Notes under the pieces: generated by a model
Seen by the model: only the letters and a program-made list of their open reading frames with translations
Told to the model about the DNA's origin: nothing
Databases searched by the model: none
Translations under genes and position numbers: made by a program
Part shown: one piece after another, positions 1-9,311 of the stretch
Numbering within the stretch: the first letter of the stretch is position 1
Layout: every line of letters starts with the position of its first letter
DNA from: Lachnospiraceae bacterium AC2031
Lineage (GTDB): Bacteria > Bacillota > Clostridia > Lachnospirales > Lachnospiraceae
DNA length: 64,000 bases
Assembly: GCA_000687975.1 (NCBI GenBank)
Contig: JIAB01000001.1
Location: 1,612,001 to 1,676,000 of the forward strand
Reading direction: 5' to 3'

Positions 1-2302
1 GATTTTTTTGAACAACCGGACTAATCTCAAAAAATCCAATAGAAAACATCGGAATAGGTCTAACATTTATAGGCGAGAATCCAATCTTATTTTCATAATC
101 TTTTTGTATCAACAATAATGCTGTTTTTACTTTATTTATATTACTATCTTCATCACTAACAGGAGATCCAAAAATATAGGAAAAATTCTCAGCATCTAAT
201 AGCATCGCATTTCTTTTTTTTGTGAAATCCTTTCTTTTCCCACCTTTTATACCTTGTTGATATAATTCATCTATTTTTTCAATCACCTTAATCAACTGAT
301 AATGTTGAATCGTTGATAATCCATGTAATCTATTAATATGTTTAAAGTCTTTTGAATTATAGTGATAATATGCCTCTCCAACCAAATCATTTCTTCTAGC
401 AGCTCTTCCTATTTCCTGAACATAATCACAAACATTACCAGTAGGAGCAAAATGAACAACCAACTCTATATCATTAATATCTATACCCATTCCAAAAGCT
501 TTTGTGGCTAACATCACCAATTTTTTCTTTGAATAAAAATCCTCATAATTTTCCTGTTTTTCTTCTTTTTTTAGAGTACCATAATATTTTGCGATATGCT
601 CCACTTCTCGTCTGTTTTTTAGAAATTCATAACATCTTTCTATTAGTGCAACGGTCGGAAAATATATCAAAGTCTTTTTATTTGTTATTATCGCACGTTT
701 CAATATTTGTTCCACTTGTTCGAATTTATCCTGCTCATATTCTGAACGTGCTCCTTTTTCTTTCTTTGAATCATCTATAACAATTGTGATATCTTTTCGC
801 TTTATATACCCCAAGTATGTAATAGGATTTATCATATGCAAGCTATTTATTGTTTCTGTATACATATCTTCTATGCCATGGAATATCGCTGTTGCAGTAA
901 ACGTTGCTATCACAAATGATCTATGTTTATTCTCAATTTGTTTTTTACGAAGTTTTTTAATATGATCTCCCAAATACCAGTAATCCGGTCTGAACTGCTT
1001 TCCCCACGTAGTCACAATATGTGCTTCATCGATTACTATCATACCAATTGTTCGATTTCCGATCAGCTGTTCTACATCACTTCTACTAAGTAATGTTTCT
1101 GGAGAAATATATAAAATGTGATATTTTCCTTCAGAAACCTTATCTATAATATCTTGTTTTATTATCGGTGAAATATCAGAATTAATAGTCTTCGCATATT
1201 TGTAATTAACCATTTCAAGATTTTTGACCTGATCATTCATCAAACCAATTAGGGGAGATATCACAATTGTCAATAAATTATATTTCTCTGCCAAATAAAT
1301 AGCTGGCACCTGAAACATTACTGATTTCCCCCCACCAGTAGGCGCAGTAACAAATACATCTCTAAAAGCTTTGTCTTCTCCACAGTTCTCTACTTGTTCA
1401 ACAAGATTAGATACAATTGCTTCTTGAGACACCTTTATAACTTTTTTATTTCCATCTTCTAATTCCCTCATATCGTAAACCGATATATCGCGATATGATT
1501 CATATCCCCAATATTTTTTTAAGATATCACTATATTCTTCTCTGTGTTCATATTGATTATCTACCTCTTGAATTTGAGCGTAGTAAACATCAGAATAATC
1601 TTTCCAATAATAGGAAACTAGAGCAATGTGTTCTTTAAGACGATTTATATCGCCCGTATAATTGCTTATTCTCACATATAATTCATCAGGAGTATCAAAT
1701 AAGCGTTTAATAAAATCTAAATAATCAGATTCCTCTATCAAATCACAATCAACAATATCATCATTCGTAATTGTTGGTTGTAGGAGTTTTTCATAATCAA
1801 ATAGATTAACAACTATAACTTTATTATTTGATAAGACAGCCGGTTCACTATATACTCCCAACAAATAACCATTAAACTCTTTAAGGCCTTCAAAAATAGA
1901 AATATATTCATCTATATCACCAATAACTGTTTCATCATTCTCATCAATATCTGACTCTTCAAAATGATATAACAAGCCTTTCTTTACTTCGTCAGAAAAA
2001 CAGTCTTCAACAGGATATTGCTCCATATATAGATTATTATTTAATATGTAAATGTCTTTATACTGTGATACGATAAAATCTGCCATCAGAATAAATTCTT
2101 CATAAGTAATATATGTTCTTTTACTGTACAGTGACATAAAGTACTGCATTTTATTATCAACAACTTTATCTAATTCAATCTTTGTAATACTACTATCAAC
2201 TACAGAGATAGGAATACCCTTAAGTACTACAATTGTTTTCTCATCAACAACAATATCTTTCAATTTTTCATTTATTTGGTTTTTTATTATTGAATCGCCC
2301 AT
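1..2302 (-). CDS. RecQ-like DEAD/DEAH-box helicase, C-terminus cut by window edge
   Basis: Superfamily 2 DNA helicase expected to unwind DNA with ATP. About 767 residues are visible; the frame is open to position 1, so the 3' end lies outside. Helicase motifs in order: a RecQ-type aromatic motif (YWGYESYRD, about 285), Walker A APTGGGKS (320-327), DEAH box (425-428), a TFTATA motif III, the motif V block ATKAFGMGIDI, and motif VI QEIGRAARR (about 629-637). The first ~280 residues match nothing I recognise and are long for RecQ, whose core usually begins near the N-terminus. The ATG lies 8 bp after the sigma gene's stop codon, so the two are surely cotranscribed. The gene is AT-rich compared with the rest of the window. 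Function beyond helicase activity is inference; context suggests defence or mobile-element biology. Confidence 0.88.
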   Translation of the reverse strand, partial: MGDSIIKNQINEKLKDIVVDEKTIVVLKGIPISVVDSSITKIELDKVVDNKMQYFMSLYSKRTYITYEEFILMADFIVSQYKDIYILNNNLYMEQYPVEDCFSDEVKKGLLYHFEESDIDENDETVIGDIDEYISIFEGLKEFNGYLLGVYSEPAVLSNNKVIVVNLFDYEKLLQPTITNDDIVDCDLIEESDYLDFIKRLFDTPDELYVRISNYTGDINRLKEHIALVSYYWKDYSDVYYAQIQEVDNQYEHREEYSDILKKYWGYESYRDISVYDMRELEDGNKKVIKVSQEAIVSNLVEQVENCGEDKAFRDVFVTAPTGGGKSVMFQVPAIYLAEKYNLLTIVISPLIGLMNDQVKNLEMVNYKYAKTINSDISPIIKQDIIDKVSEGKYHILYISPETLLSRSDVEQLIGNRTIGMIVIDEAHIVTTWGKQFRPDYWYLGDHIKKLRKKQIENKHRSFVIATFTATAIFHGIEDMYTETINSLHMINPITYLGYIKRKDITIVIDDSKKEKGARSEYEQDKFEQVEQILKRAIITNKKTLIYFPTVALIERCYEFLKNRREVEHIAKYYGTLKKEEKQENYEDFYSKKKLVMLATKAFGMGIDINDIELVVHFAPTGNVCDYVQEIGRAARRNDLVGEAYYHYNSKDFKHINRLHGLSTIQHYQLIKVIEKIDELYQQGIKGGKRKDFTKKRNAMLLDAENFSYIFGSPVSDEDSNINKVKTALLLIQKDYENKIGFSPINVRPIPMFSIGFFEISPVVQKN

Positions 2303-2310
2303 ATTTTCCC

Positions 2311-3408
2311 CTACTCATCTAAAAAATCTTTATATTTTTTTGCTCGCTTATTTCTTCTTAGTTTTCCCAAAGCTTTTGCTTCGATCTGTCTTATTCTTTC
2401 TCTTGTGACATCAAATCGTTCTCCAATTTCTTCTAAAGTATGTTCCCTTCCATCTACAAGACCAAACCTCATTTTTATCACTTCTTGTTCCCTTGGTTTA
2501 AGTGATTCTATAGCTTCTTCTAAGGCTTGTCTCAGAACACTACTATATACTATTTCCTCTACCGTCAAAGAATCCTTATCCTCAATCAATTCTCCCAACT
2601 CAGTTTCTTCATCTTCTCCAACATAAGAATTTAATGAGGAATATGATAAAAAATTCTTTCTTAAAATCAAACATTCCCTTACATTTTCAACCGGCATAGA
2701 CAATTCTTCAGAAATTCTTTCAATTCTCTCGTCTAGATTCAATCCCTGAATCATAAAAGTATTATCATATCTTGCAACCTTATTGATTCTCTCCATCATA
2801 TGAACAGGGATTCTGATTGCAAATCCGTTATCCATTATTTCTCTTGAAATAGCTTGTTTAATCCACCATACTGCATAAGTACTAAACGAATTACCTAGTT
2901 CTGCATTGAATTTTTTTGCCGCCTTTATCAATCCAAAAAATCCCACTTGTTTCAAATCTTCATAATCTAATCTATTACCATATCTTTTCTGATATTTTGA
3001 TACATATTTATCAACCAAACGTTCATTTTTAACACATAAATCTTGTTCCGCCTGTTTGTTCCCCTGCTGTATCATTATACAAAGCAGATTATTCGATTGT
3101 TTAACAACCTTTTTTTCTTCCAAGAATTGAACAGAGTTTTCATCTATTCCTTGATCTTTAAAAATCGTTTCATCATATAGCACCTCAAAGCTATCTTCAC
3201 TCTCTTCTTCGACATCTAAAACAAATGACTCGGTCTCTTTTAGTTCTTCCTCGTCAATTAAGTCTATCCCATTTTCAAATAAAATATCAGCTGCGCGATA
3301 TTGTTCCTTAATAGATAGCATATCAAATATTTTAGAGAATTGATTGTACGTGATACAACCATCCTGTACGTATGGTTCAGCCATACTAATAATGATATCC
3401 GTATTCAT
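2311..3408 (-). CDS. RpoD-like sigma-70 factor embedded between two helicases
   Basis: A 365-residue sigma-70 protein, not an ECF type. Residues 18-54 (ITYNQFSKIFDML...GIDLIDEEE) resemble sigma region 1.1 of primary sigmas; an acidic stretch follows. Region 2 runs about 115-200 with DLKQVGFFGLIKAAKKF and FSTYAVWWIKQAISREI, the -10 recognition and melting segments. Region 4.2 (323-365) reads TLEEIGERFDVTRERIRQIE and ends KDFLDE, as in RpoD. The ATG at 3408 is preceded by GGGAGG about 8 nt upstream; an in-frame ATG 12 codons earlier lacks one and would overlap the previous gene. It sits 16 bp after the NERD-helicase gene and 8 bp before the RecQ-like gene. A housekeeping-type sigma in a helicase operon is unusual. 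It may drive its own operon or redirect polymerase; that is inference. Confidence 0.9.
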   Translation of the reverse strand: MNTDIIISMAEPYVQDGCITYNQFSKIFDMLSIKEQYRAADILFENGIDLIDEEELKETESFVLDVEEESEDSFEVLYDETIFKDQGIDENSVQFLEEKKVVKQSNNLLCIMIQQGNKQAEQDLCVKNERLVDKYVSKYQKRYGNRLDYEDLKQVGFFGLIKAAKKFNAELGNSFSTYAVWWIKQAISREIMDNGFAIRIPVHMMERINKVARYDNTFMIQGLNLDERIERISEELSMPVENVRECLILRKNFLSYSSLNSYVGEDEETELGELIEDKDSLTVEEIVYSSVLRQALEEAIESLKPREQEVIKMRFGLVDGREHTLEEIGERFDVTRERIRQIEAKALGKLRRNKRAKKYKDFLDE

Positions 3409-3424
3409 GTTCACACCCTCCCAT

Positions 3425-5389
3425 TTAAAATATCCATGACACATAATCAGGACATTTTTCTGAAGCTTTCTTTAAAATTTTAGCTATACTTGATTGAGGA
3501 TTTTTTATCGTAATAATCATTGTATCTATTGCTCGCGTAAATGGAATCATTGACCAGTTATATATATACTTTTTCTTCCTCTCTTCTGGGCTTTCAAGTA
3601 TCAAGGAATCAACTTTTCCATCAATATATTCTTTTTCTTTTTCTTCAATAAACACATCAAAATCAAGGCAAATAACTGTCCATCCTTCTAAGCCTCTAGC
3701 AGAACTATATTGAAGAACTCTCATCTCATCAGTATCAATCGGATATGAATCTCTATTATTACTATTCGTTCCATCCCATAATTCAATCCCTGCATCAGAA
3801 AAACTCTTATATTTTTTAAATTTCGATTCCCCACCCGTTTTTTCTACCATGGACGACGGGACCAAACACAAAAGATCGTATGCTATATTTCCTGCTTCTT
3901 TTATCCGAACAAGTTCCTGGTTGCATATATCAACAATATTCTCTGACGATGTAATAATTACATTTCCACCATACAATTTATTATTTGGGATTATTTTTCC
4001 TCCTAAAGAGCCCATCTCCTGAGAATACTCATTAAGAAACGAAACAATATTCCTTTTTTGCCGTAAACAATATTTTAATTTAATGCTGTTTTTATTCTTT
4101 GAATCAGCCCAATTACATGCGTTTTCATTTCGCACAAACTGATTGCCTCCATCTGCTACAATAATATTCTTTTCATTATATATTTTTAAAATAACTTCCT
4201 TCTCTTTTATACTCCAATCCTGAGCTTCATCCACTAAGACATAATCCCAATTTAACTGGTCATCAGAAAACATCATTTCACGAATTAAATCAATAGATTC
4301 ATCATCATTCAAAAAATCTAATAGCTCATCAAGAACCGCTTCATATTTATTTAGAAATTTATCACCCGACATTTTCCCGTCATATAGTGTTTTATTACAT
4401 AATCTATAAAAATATGAATGTAATGTGTTAATATGCACACAGCTCTCTTCAAATAAATCAGGTAAATCTGCAAGAGCAAATAATCTTCTAATATCCGATA
4501 CTAAGGCCTTATTATATGTCAATATCAAAACCCTTGCCTGTTTTTCATCTACCATTTTTATAGCTGTTTGAATCAAACCAACTGTTTTACCAGTTCCAGC
4601 TCGCCCCCTAAGAATCGAAATTCCACTTTCACAATCAATAGAATAATTATCAACAAACGATTTGTTTGTAATCATTTCTATTCTATTTCTCGTCATTTCT
4701 CCCATAGACTTTTGTGTTCTAGAAAAAAGCGAAAGAGCATTTTGAAATGAATCAAAAGAACCATAATCACAGTTACAATCAAAAACAAAACCAGTCCGTC
4801 GTTTTTGTGGTGTTTTCTGGTCAACTAACAATCTAATCAATTCGTCAAATGTAAATTCAGCACCAATCACGTTTGACGGCATCCTTTTCCCATTAATAGT
4901 TAAAAGATTTGTTATATCCTTAGATGTTATCTGATTAAACCAAATCAAATTTGTTATATATGGCGAAAAGGATATTGTCTGCTCAAAAAAGTTTTTTGCA
5001 GCTATTTTCTGCTTATTTGATTGCAATGTGACACAGTGTTTGCCATTTCCATATCTAACATAAAAATCTGTACCATTTACTTCAACACCAGAAATATCAT
5101 GACTTTTAATTTCTATCGTTGTACAAAAATTTCTTATTTCAACTGAATCATAAATATGTTCATCTTCAAAATAAAAATCTGATTTAACACAGTAATTATT
5201 TAGTTTTCCTATCAAAAATAAATCTACATCTTTTACAGACTGTCCCATTAAAGTAGCGCTTGCAAATAAAACAATTTCTCCTGTCACCGATTCTGGCAAG
5301 CTGTCTAATATAATCTTTTTCAATCTATTTGCCGAAACATATTCATCAGATGATTTATCTGCCCCATAAACTGATATTTCTACACTCAT
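3425..5389 (-). CDS. NERD-like nuclease domain fused to SF1 (UvrD-like) helicase
   Basis: A 654-residue ATPase, first gene of a three-gene minus-strand operon. Residues 35-135 look like a NERD/restriction-fold nuclease: VDLFLIG (acidic D near 57), then IEIKS (93-97), the E-x-K pattern, then a Gln-rich helix. SF1 motifs follow: Walker A GRAGTGKT (262-269), LTYNKAL (motif Ia), VDEAQDW (387-391, Walker B), ADGGNQF (motif III), LQYSSARGLEGWTVI (motif V) and PFTRAIDTMII (motif VI). At 654 residues it is shorter than UvrD, with little room for the 1B/2B insertions. The ATG at 5389 is chosen because GGAGAGG lies 8 nt upstream; an adjacent GTG is the alternative start. Likely acts on DNA, perhaps foreign DNA; the substrate is unknown. 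Confidence 0.85.
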   Translation of the reverse strand: MSVEISVYGADKSSDEYVSANRLKKIILDSLPESVTGEIVLFASATLMGQSVKDVDLFLIGKLNNYCVKSDFYFEDEHIYDSVEIRNFCTTIEIKSHDISGVEVNGTDFYVRYGNGKHCVTLQSNKQKIAAKNFFEQTISFSPYITNLIWFNQITSKDITNLLTINGKRMPSNVIGAEFTFDELIRLLVDQKTPQKRRTGFVFDCNCDYGSFDSFQNALSLFSRTQKSMGEMTRNRIEMITNKSFVDNYSIDCESGISILRGRAGTGKTVGLIQTAIKMVDEKQARVLILTYNKALVSDIRRLFALADLPDLFEESCVHINTLHSYFYRLCNKTLYDGKMSGDKFLNKYEAVLDELLDFLNDDESIDLIREMMFSDDQLNWDYVLVDEAQDWSIKEKEVILKIYNEKNIIVADGGNQFVRNENACNWADSKNKNSIKLKYCLRQKRNIVSFLNEYSQEMGSLGGKIIPNNKLYGGNVIITSSENIVDICNQELVRIKEAGNIAYDLLCLVPSSMVEKTGGESKFKKYKSFSDAGIELWDGTNSNNRDSYPIDTDEMRVLQYSSARGLEGWTVICLDFDVFIEEKEKEYIDGKVDSLILESPEERKKKYIYNWSMIPFTRAIDTMIITIKNPQSSIAKILKKASEKCPDYVSWIF

Positions 5390-5435
5390 CACTTTATCCT
5401 CTCCAAATAATTTCTATATTCAATCTTTATCAAAA

Positions 5436-5479
5436 AAAGAAATAGAAGCCGGTATCAATGTACAAACTTCTATTTCTTT
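5436..5479 (-). terminator. Intrinsic terminator upstream of helicase operon
   Basis: Perfect 13-bp inverted arms (AAAGAAATAGAAG and its complement) around an 18-nt loop; on the minus strand the second arm runs into a T-run at 5435-5432. It would stop transcription entering the NERD-helicase operon from upstream. Confidence 0.7.
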
Positions 5480-5648
5480 ACACACGAAAAATAGATATTA
5501 TTAATATTTTCAAATCGGTTTTTGTTTTTATATGCCCCCATAACAACACACCACCTTTGTAAATATTCAATACTTTTCAAATTATATCATATTTCAGCTA
5601 TATTTTATACGGTTTTTGCCCCTACAAAAGCCATTAACCAAATAAAAA

Positions 5649-5675
5649 CCAGACCTACCCTAGTCGTAGATCTGG
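5649..5675 (-). terminator. Hairpin terminator inside 71-bp repeat copy 1
   Basis: Ten-base stem (CCAGATCTAC pairing with GTAGGTCTGG, one G-U pair) and a short loop, followed on the minus strand by five T's. The same hairpin recurs in the second repeat copy. Confidence 0.65.
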
Positions 5676-5721
5676 TTTCACTACCTCCTGTATTATTTTG
5701 TCATGATAATCAGGCCTGTCT
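5651..5721 (-). repeat. 71-bp dispersed repeat, copy 1
   Basis: About 92 percent identical by eye to 7810-7879. Read on the minus strand it contains AGGAGG, then a start codon (here GTG), then codons for KPDLRLG, then the terminator hairpin. In this copy a stop follows after eight codons. One extra C distinguishes it from copy 2. Origin unknown; possibly the debris of a small mobile or coding element. Confidence 0.75.
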
Positions 5722-5782
5722 ATATAACAATATTTGAAGAAAAATATCCCTTAAAAATCAGAAAAAACGCTTTTTTGAAAAA

Positions 5783-5831
5783 GGACAAAGTCTGGGAACG
5801 CCCTATTTATAAGGTTCCCGCGACTTTGTCC
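5783..5831 (-). terminator. Strong intrinsic terminator after PLD fossil
   Basis: Inverted repeat with outer arms GGACAAAGTC/GACTTTGTCC and inner GGGAAC/GTTCCC; on the minus strand it is followed by TTTTT. It lies 14 bp downstream of the stop codon of the PLD-helicase remnant. Confidence 0.8.
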
Positions 5832-5844
5832 CTATTATGACATA

Positions 5845-6159
5845 TTACCCGGTTGCTGATATAAGTAACGCTTTATCTTCCCACAGTGCATCAAAAGCCG
5901 ACTGAATGTTCTTAAACATTTCACCTTCGGCTGTTGAAACCATTTTAGTATTCCACTCTTTATTAACAGAGAGCGCTTTTCCTGTCATGTTGGAACTACC
6001 AATAATAAAGGTATATGGTTCGTCACGCCTAAAGATGTATCCCTTTGTATGATCATTTGATATGAAATCCGGTTTATATGCTGCACTTGATTTATTTGCT
6101 GAATCAATAAATGCAGTGGTTGCACCGGATAAGAATCTCTTCCGCAGTATTCTTCCCAA
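5845..6159 (-). pseudogene. Remnant of PLD-type helicase (phospholipase D-like domain fragment)
   Basis: A 104-codon fragment. The stretch DHTKGYIFRRDEPYTFIIG, SSNMTGKAL, then KEWNTK is the H-x-K...S-S-N-x(n)-W-N signature of the PLD nuclease domain at the N-terminus of some DEAD/DEAH (SSL2-like) defence helicases. The part before the H-x-K motif is shortened and the whole helicase portion is absent; the fragment ends with a stop and a terminator. The first ATG falls 12 bp after the stop of the preceding membrane protein. It could be translated, but a half PLD domain is unlikely to be active alone. Its presence next to the NERD/sigma/RecQ operon suggests the area has lost other helicase-type genes. 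Confidence 0.65.
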
Positions 6160-6171
6160 GATTTCTGATAT

Positions 6172-7428
6172 CTATTTAAGTTCAATATATCCGGTCGAGA
6201 AATCATTACTTGGGTCTACCGGATCCGAAAGGCTAAAGGACACTTCGACTTTTGAATCGGCCGAGCGTTTTCTAAATTCATCTCCCAGGCCATTAACTGA
6301 GTCATGATGAAGAGTATAGCCTGCGGGAAGCCCGGAATTATAAAGGACATACGAGTTGCAAGCTTCTCCATCTATCTTCATATTTGTATCATCGATGTAA
6401 TAATTATTCTCTGAGATATTATCAATCCATAATTCATATCCGTATTCACTATTTTCTTTCTCAATAGATCTGATGCGTATCTTATCATTTTCAAAGATAA
6501 CACTACCCTTGTCCTTATCTTTAGTTATGACAGTATAACCCTCATCATTAAGCTTGAAAGTTTCCATACTGGTTTTTTCATAGATATCGCCTTCCTCATT
6601 TCTAAGACCGACTTCACCTATAACCATTTCATCTATTGAGTCAAACCATTCACCATAAACACTTTCATAATATGTTACTTCTGAATTTCCTCTAAATTCA
6701 CTGCTCGTGTAGATATAATCTCTATATTTACACCGACCATTGATACCGACACATTTTAAAGTAAAACGAACTGGTTCCTTTCTTTTGTTTTTCAGCGTAA
6801 AGCCTACTCGATAAGAATAATCTTGATCATTATATTCTCCATTGGTTGTATCGGCATATATGCTCACTATTCTTACTGTTACGCCATCCTGATCAAAAAC
6901 CGTTACATCAGGGCTGTCAATAAGAGTGTATTCCTTGTAATTGTAGTCCTTAACAGCTTCATTACCGCGATATTTAGATGTGTTTGTATAAGTAGATGTC
7001 CTTCTATCCATAATCGCGGAATAAACTACTATTAATACAAATACAACCAACAAGGCTATGATTGCGATCCGTATATGTTTCAAAGTCTCAAGGCCTTCCT
7101 TGTGTGCTCTTGAGACAGCATCCTTCGCGGCGGCATCTGCCATTTTTTCAACAGCAGCCTCATCTACTTTGTAACGATGTTTTAGTTCCTTATCATCTCC
7201 GTAGACGGCACCACAGTTAGGACATTTTTTCTCTTTGTCTGTATTTATGATACATCCACAGTAATCACAGGTTATTTGCGGACTTTTGATCCGCATCTTA
7301 GCAGACTTCTTTTCAGCAGTCTTTCTGAATTCCTTTGAACTTAAGATATTAGCCTGTACATACACATATCTAATTATTAAAGAAATAATAATGATCACTA
7401 ATATGACCATCGCAATTATAAGTATCAT
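6172..7428 (-). CDS. Zinc-ribbon membrane protein with extracytoplasmic domain
   Basis: A 418-residue protein of unknown function. Layout: N-terminal membrane segment (2-22); a four-Cys zinc ribbon (CDYCGC...CPNCG, about 54-77); a charged linker; a second membrane segment (about 122-142, IAIIALLVVFVLIVVYSAIM); then roughly 270 residues of predominantly beta-type sequence with two repeated modules of similar flavour (DSPDVTVFDQDGVTVRIVSI and then VIFENDKIRIRSIEKE), like immunoglobulin-type domains facing outside. Such zinc-ribbon/TM/beta proteins are common uncharacterised proteins in Lachnospiraceae. Translation appears coupled to a seven-codon reading frame whose TGA overlaps this ATG; the only good ribosome binding site is the one for that short frame. 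Confidence 0.75.
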   Translation of the reverse strand: MILIIAMVILVIIIISLIIRYVYVQANILSSKEFRKTAEKKSAKMRIKSPQITCDYCGCIINTDKEKKCPNCGAVYGDDKELKHRYKVDEAAVEKMADAAAKDAVSRAHKEGLETLKHIRIAIIALLVVFVLIVVYSAIMDRRTSTYTNTSKYRGNEAVKDYNYKEYTLIDSPDVTVFDQDGVTVRIVSIYADTTNGEYNDQDYSYRVGFTLKNKRKEPVRFTLKCVGINGRCKYRDYIYTSSEFRGNSEVTYYESVYGEWFDSIDEMVIGEVGLRNEEGDIYEKTSMETFKLNDEGYTVITKDKDKGSVIFENDKIRIRSIEKENSEYGYELWIDNISENNYYIDDTNMKIDGEACNSYVLYNSGLPAGYTLHHDSVNGLGDEFRKRSADSKVEVSFSLSDPVDPSNDFSTGYIELK

Positions 7429-7448
7429 CTTTTTTTATCAGGTTTCAT
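7425..7448 (-). CDS. Seven-codon upstream frame overlapping the next start (ATGA)
   Basis: GAAAGGA immediately precedes an ATG that opens seven codons (MKPDKKR) and ends at a TGA sharing bases with the ATG of the zinc-ribbon membrane protein. The arrangement fits translational coupling. The first four residues match those of the frames opened in the 71-bp repeats (M/V-K-P-D), which may be chance. No peptide function is implied. Confidence 0.4.
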   Translation of the reverse strand: MKPDKKR

Positions 7449-7671
7449 TCCTTTCGTTCAATTTATGATTTCTCAACTTATTAATAATCCACACAGAAAC
7501 GGTGCTTCTTATAATACTTTGTGACCATAATATAAAACTTCTGCTGGTTAAGAGCGGTAGGTGCCATCATTGCCATTTTGTTATGATATGAGAAAGATGT
7601 CAATAGATTTCATAGTTCCTTTTTGATAAAATATGTTTTTATATATTCACACTATACAAGCTGTAAAATCA

Positions 7672-7839
7672 TCAAGCGGATCTACATAATAATAAAAAAA
7701 TAGAGCCATGTATGAAAATCACACATCGCTCTTGCAAAACGTTTCCGTTTTTTCGTGTAAATCTATTTTCCCCCTCTGAGAACCAAAAGTCAATCTCTTT
7801 TTCGATAAAAGACCTACCTAGTCGTAGATCTGGTTTCAT
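7672..7839 (-). CDS. Doubtful 55-codon frame opened by repeat copy 2
   Basis: Begins MKPDLRLGRSFIEKEIDFWF and continues with charged, protein-like composition (SEGENRFTRKNGNV) before a hydrophobic tail encoded by the terminator hairpin. AGGAGG lies two bases before the ATG, which is too close for good initiation. In repeat copy 1 the equivalent frame stops after eight codons. It may be the decayed start of a once longer gene carried by the repeat. I do not recognise the family. Confidence 0.2.
   Translation of the reverse strand: MKPDLRLGRSFIEKEIDFWFSEGENRFTRKNGNVLQERCVIFIHGSIFLLLCRSA
7702..7733 (-). terminator. Intrinsic terminator
   Basis: AGAGCgATGTgTGA pairs with its near-complement across a TTTT loop; on the minus strand a T-run (TATTTTTTTATT) follows. 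Second of two terminators downstream of the GNAT gene. Confidence 0.7.
7806..7831 (-). terminator. Terminator hairpin in repeat copy 2
   Basis: AGATCTAC pairs with GTAGGTCT, followed by TTTT on the minus strand; positioned about 80 bp after the GNAT stop codon at the end of the MarR operon. Confidence 0.55.
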
Positions 7840-7879
7840 TACCTCCTGTATTATTTTGCTATGTTAATCAGGCCAGCCT
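7810..7879 (-). repeat. 71-bp dispersed repeat, copy 2
   Basis: Near-identical to 5651-5721, with one base fewer in the loop and an ATG instead of GTG after AGGAGG. Both copies are oriented the same way on the minus strand and both carry the terminator hairpin. They bracket the PLD fossil and the zinc-ribbon membrane gene. Confidence 0.75.
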
Positions 7880-7909
7880 TTACTCTTCCCCCCTAAATGT
7901 CTTCTGCAT

Positions 7910-8428
7910 TTATATCTTCTTCTGCATCCAGATAAGATCATACCATCTATCAAACTTCTTTCCTACCTCTTCCATATGAGCCACCTTCTTGTAGCCTTCT
8001 TTTTCATGGAATAGAAAGCTATCGTGGGATAGGTATTCATCTTCCTGAGCGGAATATGCTACACCTGCCAGGAGATTGATGATTCCAATCTTTCTTAGCT
8101 CGTTTTCCAGCTCCCTGTAAAGCAGAGAACCTGCGCCCTGTCTGCGGCATTCTTTATCAATGTATATCGAAGTTCCTACAGTCCATGAGTAGGCTTCTCT
8201 GGAACTATACTCACTCGCATATACATATCCGATTATCTCTCCATCTTTCTCACACACAAGATACGGATACTTTTCAGTGATATGTTTTATTCTTTTCTTA
8301 AATTCTTCTACAGATGGAACCTCGTACTCAAAGGATACAGCTGTTTTCTCAACATAATATGAATATATATCAACTAATCTTTCTGCATCTTCAGGTTTCA
8401 CCTTGCGAATAATTAAACTACTTTCCAT
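7910..8428 (-). CDS. GNAT acetyltransferase, phosphinothricin-acetyltransferase-like
   Basis: A 172-residue GNAT enzyme that should transfer acetyl from acetyl-CoA to an amine. The start IIRKVKPEDAERLVDIYSYYVEKTAVSFE and the acetyl-CoA loop RRQGAGSLLY (about 105-114) match the PAT/bar-like group. The substrate is not known; this group includes enzymes acting on glutamate analogues and methionine sulfone. The ATG at 8428 has GAGGAG 10 nt upstream and overlaps the end of the previous gene by 11 bp; an in-frame TTG six codons earlier is the alternative. Last gene of a MarR-led operon. Confidence 0.85.
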   Translation of the reverse strand: MESSLIIRKVKPEDAERLVDIYSYYVEKTAVSFEYEVPSVEEFKKRIKHITEKYPYLVCEKDGEIIGYVYASEYSSREAYSWTVGTSIYIDKECRRQGAGSLLYRELENELRKIGIINLLAGVAYSAQEDEYLSHDSFLFHEKEGYKKVAHMEEVGKKFDRWYDLIWMQKKI

Positions 8429-8873
8429 GGCCTTCTCTCTCCTCAATCATTTCCTCTATAATATCTACTGCATTAGCAACCATTTTAGGACAGAAATCCG
8501 TGAATAACTTCTGTTCCTGGGCATACTTTATTCCTTCTTCGGTTCTTACATCACATCCAAGTAAGTCGTTACATATATAGGAACCTGACTTTTCTGCAAA
8601 TCTTCTCATCATTTCATCATTAACTTCATTTGCTCTTACACACTTTTCCAAGTCGCCCGTACCATGCTCACCATAGAGGCATCCTAATACCATAAGGGCA
8701 CCTGTACATGCTCCACATACTTCTCCCTGTCTCATTCCTGTGCCAAAACAGGCTGATACTTTTAAAGCCTGCTCTTCGGTGAGACCACATTCCTCAGCAA
8801 ACGCTACAAGGACAGCCTGCGAACATAGATTCTTTTCATTAAATAGCTTTAGGGCTTTTTCTTTATGTGTCAT
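8418..8873 (-). CDS. C_GCAxxG_C_C family redox-type protein
   Basis: A 151-residue cytoplasmic protein carrying the family's cysteine signature: an N-terminal CSQAV, then VCGACTGALM (the C-GCAxxG core, about 53-62), CNDLLGCD and FCPKMV near the C-terminus. These conserved cysteines are thought to bind metal or do thiol chemistry, but no member has a settled role that I know. AGAGGAGG overlaps the MarR stop codon and lies 9 nt before the ATG, so translation is coupled to the regulator. It overlaps the downstream GNAT start. Confidence 0.88.
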   Translation of the reverse strand: MTHKEKALKLFNEKNLCSQAVLVAFAEECGLTEEQALKVSACFGTGMRQGEVCGACTGALMVLGCLYGEHGTGDLEKCVRANEVNDEMMRRFAEKSGSYICNDLLGCDVRTEEGIKYAQEQKLFTDFCPKMVANAVDIIEEMIEEREGHGK

Positions 8874-8876
8874 AAT

Positions 8877-9311
8877 CTAATCCTCCTCTGCCATTCTGCA
8901 AGCTTCGTTATATATTCTTAAAGCTTCCAGCACTTTATCCTGGTCACTCTTTTTGATTTTTGAGAAGACCTTTTTGAACTCAGTGTACATATCAGCTTCT
9001 ATCTTGTTATATCTTTCTTCCCCGCTCTTGGTAAGTGTTAATACTACACTTCGGCGGTCCTTCTCGGATGGCTGTCTTAAGATATATCCTTTTTTTACAA
9101 GTTCTTCGACACTTCGACTAACTCCGCTTTTATCGAGCTTTAATATCTGGGCAAGATCTTTGATGCATATTCCAGGCTGTCTTCCTATCTCAACTATAAG
9201 GAAGCATTCAGATTTTTTGACATTGCATGTACAGCAATCATTATGATTAATATTATCTAGATGACACTCTAGCTCTCTTGTATATTCACGAAATTGTTTT
9301 ACTTTATCCAT
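8877..9311 (-). CDS. MarR-family transcriptional regulator
   Basis: A 144-residue winged-helix repressor. The DNA-binding part (about 40-105) reads GICIKDLAQILKLDKSGVSRSVEELVKKGYI followed by the wing RQPSEKDRRSVVLTLT. Four Cys residues sit at the N-terminal side (NDCCTCNVKKSEC), an unusual cluster for MarR that could bind metal or sense redox state, fitting the thiol protein encoded next. The ATG at 9311 is chosen because AGGAGG lies 7 nt upstream; an in-frame upstream codon has none. Probably autoregulated through the inverted repeat at the promoter. Confidence 0.9.
   Translation of the reverse strand: MDKVKQFREYTRELECHLDNINHNDCCTCNVKKSECFLIVEIGRQPGICIKDLAQILKLDKSGVSRSVEELVKKGYILRQPSEKDRRSVVLTLTKSGEERYNKIEADMYTEFKKVFSKIKKSDQDKVLEALRIYNEACRMAEED

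Follow-up and report, generated by a model that had tools for sequence, protein, structure and literature searches.

A conserved gene pair of a sigma70-family factor and a RecQ-like helicase, putatively directed against invading DNA, in Lachnospiraceae bacterium AC2031 and other bacteria

Why should a sigma factor be encoded between two helicases? This question is raised by an operon at the beginning of a 64,000-nucleotide stretch of the Lachnospiraceae bacterium AC2031 genome (contig JIAB01000001.1 of assembly GCA_000687975.1, positions 1,612,001–1,676,000; the genome is one contig of 3.19 Mb), which is referred to here as the window. Three minus-strand open reading frames (ORFs) lie at 3425–5392 (655 amino acids from a GTG), 2311–3444 (377 amino acids) and 2–2302 (open at the window edge). 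With start codons taken from relatives, and based on profile matches and, for the last protein, a predicted structure, they encode a superfamily 1 (SF1) nuclease-helicase of 654 amino acids (3425–5389, ATG at 5389; putative NERD-like PD-(D/E)XK domain plus UvrD/SLFN-type helicase), a sigma70-family factor of 365 amino acids (2311–3408, from an ATG at 3408 common to relatives; regions 2, 3 and 4 and a region 1.1-like N-terminal stretch) and the first 767 of the 1071 amino acids of a RecQ-like superfamily 2 (SF2) helicase (1–2302). The initial annotation of this DNA had named the same families, and the helicase and sigma assignments are borne out by Pfam and PADLOC profile matches. It had also given gaps of 16 and 8 bp between the genes, which are the same with the relative-supported starts, and an AT-rich composition, which agrees with a guanine-cytosine fraction of 0.30–0.33 in the operon compared with 0.29–0.49 elsewhere in the window. 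It treated the three genes as one unit. We find that the conserved core is the pair of sigma70 factor and RecQ-like helicase, and that the SF1 nuclease-helicase is a clade-specific addition.

Genome contigs were scanned with an alignment of four helicases, and the best 80 of 130 relatives were kept as loci (numbered with the prefix L where they are named individually). A sigma gene was present in 75 of these 80 loci, on the same strand in 70 and divergently oriented in five, and the five loci without it are cut off by a contig end 25–559 bases upstream of the helicase match. In 62 of the 80 loci the sigma ORF is followed directly by a helicase ORF on the same strand, with a gap of at most 25 bases in 59 and a median gap of −1; these values use longest-ORF starts, and overlaps may be overstated. 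The loci were found in Lachnospiraceae, Oscillospiraceae, Selenomonadales, Bacilli, Gastranaerophilales, a Mucispirillum and a Spirochaetales genome, among others, and the same gene order occurs on two plasmids, from Enterococcus faecium and Lactiplantibacillus plantarum. Divergent genes were observed in L009, L084, L085 and L087 (55–56 bases apart in L009, L084 and L087), and in L009 a gene annotated as an HNH endonuclease follows the helicase gene.

The three genes of AC2031 do recur together elsewhere, but with an SF1 gene in 12 of the 80 loci (ten full-length ORFs, two fragments) as against a sigma gene in 75, the trio was rejected as the conserved unit. The order SF1–sigma–helicase was found in L017, L019, L036, L037 and AC2031 itself, with SF1 fragments in L023 and L030, and the order sigma–SF1–helicase in L024–L028 and L034; in six of the 75 paired loci the SF1 gene alone separates sigma and helicase. 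All 13 SF1-labelled rows belong to a single 23-member helicase clade, and the helicase tree shows 7 changes of state.

Sigma factor and helicase have also descended in parallel. Their distances were strongly correlated across 69 loci (Mantel r = 0.85, 0 of 2000 permutations; L090, L060, L064 and L053 were left out for long branches or a swapped sigma). For 28 loci with host RpoD, the sigma–helicase correlation was 0.85, compared with 0.05 for sigma–RpoD and 0.25 for helicase–RpoD. We conclude that, in the main helicase clade, a RecQ-like helicase and a sigma70 factor additional to that of the host are conserved as a near-obligate pair that moves together.

The sigma factor is additional because all 32 host genomes searched contain a best RpoD match 62–86% identical to the RpoD of AC2031. 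In a quick tree, 31 RpoD rows grouped apart from 74 of the 75 pair sigmas. The exception is L053 (8874–13138), where an RpoD-type sigma lies beside the helicase; since this sigma groups with RpoD and the genome has a further RpoD elsewhere, an RpoD copy took the place of the pair sigma, and the slot was refilled by a sigma. The AC2031 protein matches Pfam Sigma70_r2, r3 and r4 and aligns with the RpoD model NF006666 over residues 20–376, below the model cut-off. Out of 151 columns conserved in at least 95% of the 31 RpoD rows, 30 are kept in at least 90% of 74 pair sigmas (leaving out L053) and 35 in fewer than 20%. Among the residues kept are the whole helix TRERIRQIE, which we take to read the −35 element, R-PVH of region 3 (in at least 90% of the 74) and the W and Q of the part that presumably reads the −10 element. 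Most of region 1.2 (around DPVRMYL-KEIG) is lost, as is Q-E-P of what we assume to be the region 3.2 finger, and with its separation from the RpoD rows and the loss of region 1.2 columns the pair sigma is not a group 1 housekeeping factor. Region 1.1 of 24 RpoDs has a similar counterpart in the N-terminal stretch of 60 pair sigmas (hhalign P 1.3e-5, probability 81). At the sequence level, regions 2, 3 and 4 and the promoter-reading residues of a functional sigma70 factor are all in place. Because the −35-reading helix and other promoter-reading residues are kept while regions 1.2 and 3.2 have diverged, the pair sigma is expected to function as a sigma factor that reads −35 elements in a housekeeping-like way and makes altered contacts at the start site. 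In L156 (10073–12934) the pair sigma is 953 amino acids long owing to an N-terminal extension of about 700 residues, for which Pfam and PADLOC gave no family match.

The second member of the pair combines DEAD and Helicase_C domains and is a nearly full-length member of the PADLOC family C3a193 ("poss. alt. Cas3"; E 7.5e-129), with matches to profile positions 7–690 and 388–982 of 983 in two overlapping pieces. Its helicase motifs show little or no variation across 59 sequences, and its structure model (predicted local distance difference test score, pLDDT, 85.6) matches RecQ and BLM. The part encoded in the window scored 204 bits against the RecQ equivalog model, whose cut-off is 640, and RQC, HRDC and zinc-binding domains were not matched in this protein, whereas the canonical RecQ encoded farther along the operon has all three. 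No sequence in the Protein Data Bank (PDB) matched the approximately 250 extra N-terminal residues by profile, and the 330 extra C-terminal residues gave a single PDB profile match (E 0.058). Since the rows of VIA-align barely cover residues 1–245, we make no claim of a new fold for the N-terminus.

The SF1 protein is a UvrD/SLFN-type helicase that matches PADLOC C3a187 ("NERD+UvrD") with E 9.5e-11 in its helicase part only (residues 254–581), and the Pfam NERD profile gave no match to it. Residues D55, D57, E94 and K96 (D-x-D and E-x-K) are invariant in 14 sequences, a pattern that in our view resembles PD-(D/E)XK/NERD nucleases. The structure model is weak (pLDDT 71; template modelling scores 0.13–0.24), and its fold similarity is to Gabija GajB and SLFN helicases. 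A search at E 1e-10 found the SF1 gene in AC2031 alone among 341 genomes of the class, and no match was found in phage records. More distant relatives (27–31% identical) adjoin DruE in the three alphaproteobacterial plasmid loci read, of five records matched; DruE is whole in two of these and in pieces in the third, and one also has DruF and a C5 methyltransferase alongside. A different, classical NERD-UvrD gene follows the helicase gene of a divergent, sigma-less subfamily, within 2 bases in L098 and overlapping in L155. Given this second NERD-type SF1, such a partner probably joined the C3a193-type helicase family at least twice. In L155 (3209–12314) the divergent C3a193 helicase and the NERD-UvrD helicase accompany a DpnII-type restriction-modification (R-M) cluster.

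The operon runs on past position 1 of the window, as had been guessed. The helicase gene extends 914 bases past the window edge, to genome position 1611087. Behind it, on the same strand, come genes for a 228-amino-acid protein that matched nothing in three libraries, then an AspBHI-like modification-dependent enzyme, Vsr, Sau3AI (537 bits against a cut-off of 300), a C5 methyltransferase (DNA_methylase E 4.7e-55) and the canonical RecQ. The Sau3AI above its cut-off together with the C5 methyltransferase makes these downstream genes, and not the trio, a Sau3AI-type II R-M system. Past the operon lie a divergent XRE-type gene, replication-like genes (by eye and by a weak RepA_N match), a MobQ relaxase gene and large serine recombinase genes. 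The last form a tandem of three near the MobQ gene (L100 4354–8837 and L004 1–1290; one recognized by profile, two by eye), and at L100 1560–4194 there are two tandem proteins with XRE-, PIN- and ankyrin-like sequence, their names and paralogy being assigned by eye. With the relaxase, serine recombinase and replication-like genes beside it, the operon block looks like the cargo of an integrative mobilizable element. A comparison with empty sites gave no element ends, as the neighbouring gene is 99% identical in one congener whose contig stops soon after, and membership of the operon in a known conjugative module was not established although it adjoins these genes. The PLD-helicase fossil reported beside the operon is present as the remnant of a type IV mREase-like gene on the minus strand at 5845–6159 (PLDc_2 E 2.7e-7, mREase_IV E 1.7e-11).

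The initial annotation had described the block as insulated by three terminators. Three hairpins with T runs can be seen by eye upstream of the operon, the nearest being a terminator-type hairpin followed by a U run at 5436–5479 on the minus strand (−18.4 kcal/mol, z −4.73). As a putative 23-codon leader ORF on the same strand (5470–5541) has its stop codon within this hairpin, the hairpin looks more like a candidate translation-dependent attenuator than an insulating terminator. Farther upstream, also on the minus strand, are an extended −10-like sequence, TGATATAAT (5581–5589; by consensus match only), and an intrinsic terminator-like site (5645–5679) partly within a 66-base repeat. The terminator scan found 4 terminator-like sites, where 3.0 were expected, and an Rfam search of window positions 1–9000 gave no match at gathering scores. 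The repeat occurs at 5659–5724, overlapping a terminator, and at 7817–7882 (89% identical); it was considered as an att site and rejected because parts of it recur in several congeners, so that it is more likely a dispersed repeat.

Could the operon belong to a system that already has a name? No named system had been thought to fit the trio, and the parts and pairing fit none of those tested, although it joins defence operons with a sigma factor and helicase-nuclease defence systems in kind. MZA likewise has a sigma70-family gene in a defence operon, and the AC2031 sigma matches MzaA models over residues 125–377 and 129–376, but with 237 bits against a curated cut-off of 800. Druantia (DruE/DruF/DruM) is linked to the operon by the SF1 relatives beside DruE; the operon proteins themselves are neither DruE nor DruF, DruE models match by the common helicase core alone, and the two RecQ-type helicases of the operon score best in PADLOC with C3a193 and DpdF. 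DISARM is marked by DrmB/DUF1998 and DrmA; the operon has no DUF1998 match, and DrmA matches it by weak helicase-core similarity only. No GajA-type partner of Gabija was matched in the operon. The PADLOC names of C3a193 and C3a187 mention no sigma factor. A description of a sigma–helicase pair was not found in searches of the open-licence PubMed Central literature, including the portions available of PMC12839542, PMC9523054, PMC10910872, PMC11291478 and PMC12479173, and the accessible part of PMC2292703, on MutL/MORC R-M systems, yielded no mention of "sigma factor".

What, then, does the pair do? The defence role, the DNA target and the task of the sigma factor are what we infer here. We lean, tentatively, to the possibility that the locus is the three-gene form of a mobile, patchy two-gene cassette, most likely acting against invading DNA, in which the sigma provides the cassette with separate access to RNA polymerase. 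The enzymes, the restriction neighbours, the Druantia-associated relatives and the patchy occurrence make an anti-invader role likely. With regard to occurrence, genomes drawn independently of the scan contain the helicase in 9 of 391 cases at class level and in 2 of 250 at family level, AC2031 being included in each count. Restriction-enzyme and mobile-element genes lie near the trio (Sau3AI, AspBHI-like enzyme, Vsr, MobQ, serine recombinases). R-M or PLD-helicase genes of the counted clusters occur in 20 of the 80 loci (HsdM in 10, HsdR in 8, HsdS in 6, Sau3AI, C5 methyltransferase and PLD-helicase in 4 each, others in fewer), with cluster names taken from the annotation of L007, from the AC2031 locus and by eye. 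Foreign DNA would be unwound and degraded or disabled by the helicase, joined in some loci by the NERD-type nuclease-helicase, and both would act beside the restriction enzymes of the same operon. The sigma would serve as the private route of the cassette to RNA polymerase at housekeeping-like promoters, so that the cassette might still be transcribed when a phage displaces or blocks the host sigma.

Several observations weigh against this proposal. All four query helicases have an adjacent sigma, so the scan favours loci of that kind. The independent draws gave nine other helicase loci, of which L143 and L146 repeat L021 and L059; among the seven new ones, three have a sigma (helicases 34–49% identical to that of AC2031), whereas four, with helicases 28–30% identical, have none. 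Owing to these sigma-less loci, the pairing rule holds for the main helicase clade, and the helicase family as such can do without a sigma. Linked genes co-diversify through joint transfer even without contact. No sigma-specific promoter was found upstream of the operons (mean best −35/−10 score 9.06, compared with 8.94 for shuffled sequences); extended −10 sequences (16 of 73 operons, 7.0 expected) and terminator-like hairpins (20 of 73, 10.8 expected) are in modest excess there, and the former do not amount to a clear sigma-specific promoter. The R-M genes counted are confined to a quarter of the loci, and the enrichment of defence genes near the pair that had been suggested for checking leans in the expected direction in a small comparison (type I methyltransferase in 5 of 112 near and 1 of 115 far proteins by PADLOC; the scan covered 112 of 112 near and 115 of 121 far proteins, most of them in either set encoded downstream of the pair).

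An unlikely alternative is that the sigma is a guide and not a regulator, carrying the helicase, and the nuclease where present, to RNA polymerase or promoters, where transcribed incoming DNA would be unwound and cut. One-to-one pairing and parallel trees suit a complex. A guide is also favoured by the retention of the promoter-reading parts of the sigma next to diverged region 1.2 and region 3.2 finger positions, by L053, where an ordinary RpoD copy occupies the sigma slot, and by the search upstream of the operons, which found no special promoter. Structural matches of the helicase include complexes of RECQL5 with RNA polymerase II and of Mfd with RNA polymerase, through the common SF2 core only. 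Against a guide stand the divergent helicases without a sigma, and co-transcription accounts for the pairing without contact. A sigma search found none in eight divergent, viral-contig or truncated plasmid helicase loci (L010, L011, L097, L098 and L148–L151). In L097 (9983–13165) the sigma-less divergent helicase lies on a viral contig, where a tape-measure-like gene immediately precedes it and an ADP-ribosylglycohydrolase-like gene is its neighbour (both named by eye). The specific form of this idea, in which the sigma is a targeting subunit that brings the RecQ-like helicase, in some lineages with the NERD nuclease-helicase, to RNA polymerase on newly transcribed foreign DNA, so that invaders are recognized by their promoters, appears more doubtful still. 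For the task of the sigma we favour private transcription of the cassette over delivery of the helicase to transcribed DNA.

It is rather improbable that the genes are an accessory repair or recombination module of mobile elements, with helicases that aid the establishment, replication or restriction survival of element DNA and a sigma that drives element genes. The AC2031 operon adjoining the MobQ relaxase and three serine recombinase genes, the pairs on the Enterococcus and Lactiplantibacillus plasmids, and tyrosine recombinase genes in 13 of 89 clustered loci would agree with such a module, but restriction neighbours recur, SF1 relatives sit in Druantia-type loci, and some loci lie among ordinary-looking chromosomal genes (by eye). 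That the genes are passengers, brought together by shared mobility in a defence island and lacking a joint function, is very improbable: defence and mobile genes cluster anyway and the SF1 gene comes and goes, but the sigma is kept in every scan locus not cut by a contig end, its absence being seen in the eight divergent, viral-contig or truncated plasmid loci, and the short median gap also speaks for more than proximity.

Sigma factors are usually regulators of the host, and for this reason one would not expect a primary-type sigma that accompanies a helicase one-to-one in several bacterial phyla and whose movement is independent of host descent. Should the pair defend cells, it would be either a cassette with its own transcription factor, safe from phages that seize the host sigma, or a means of detecting invaders via transcription.

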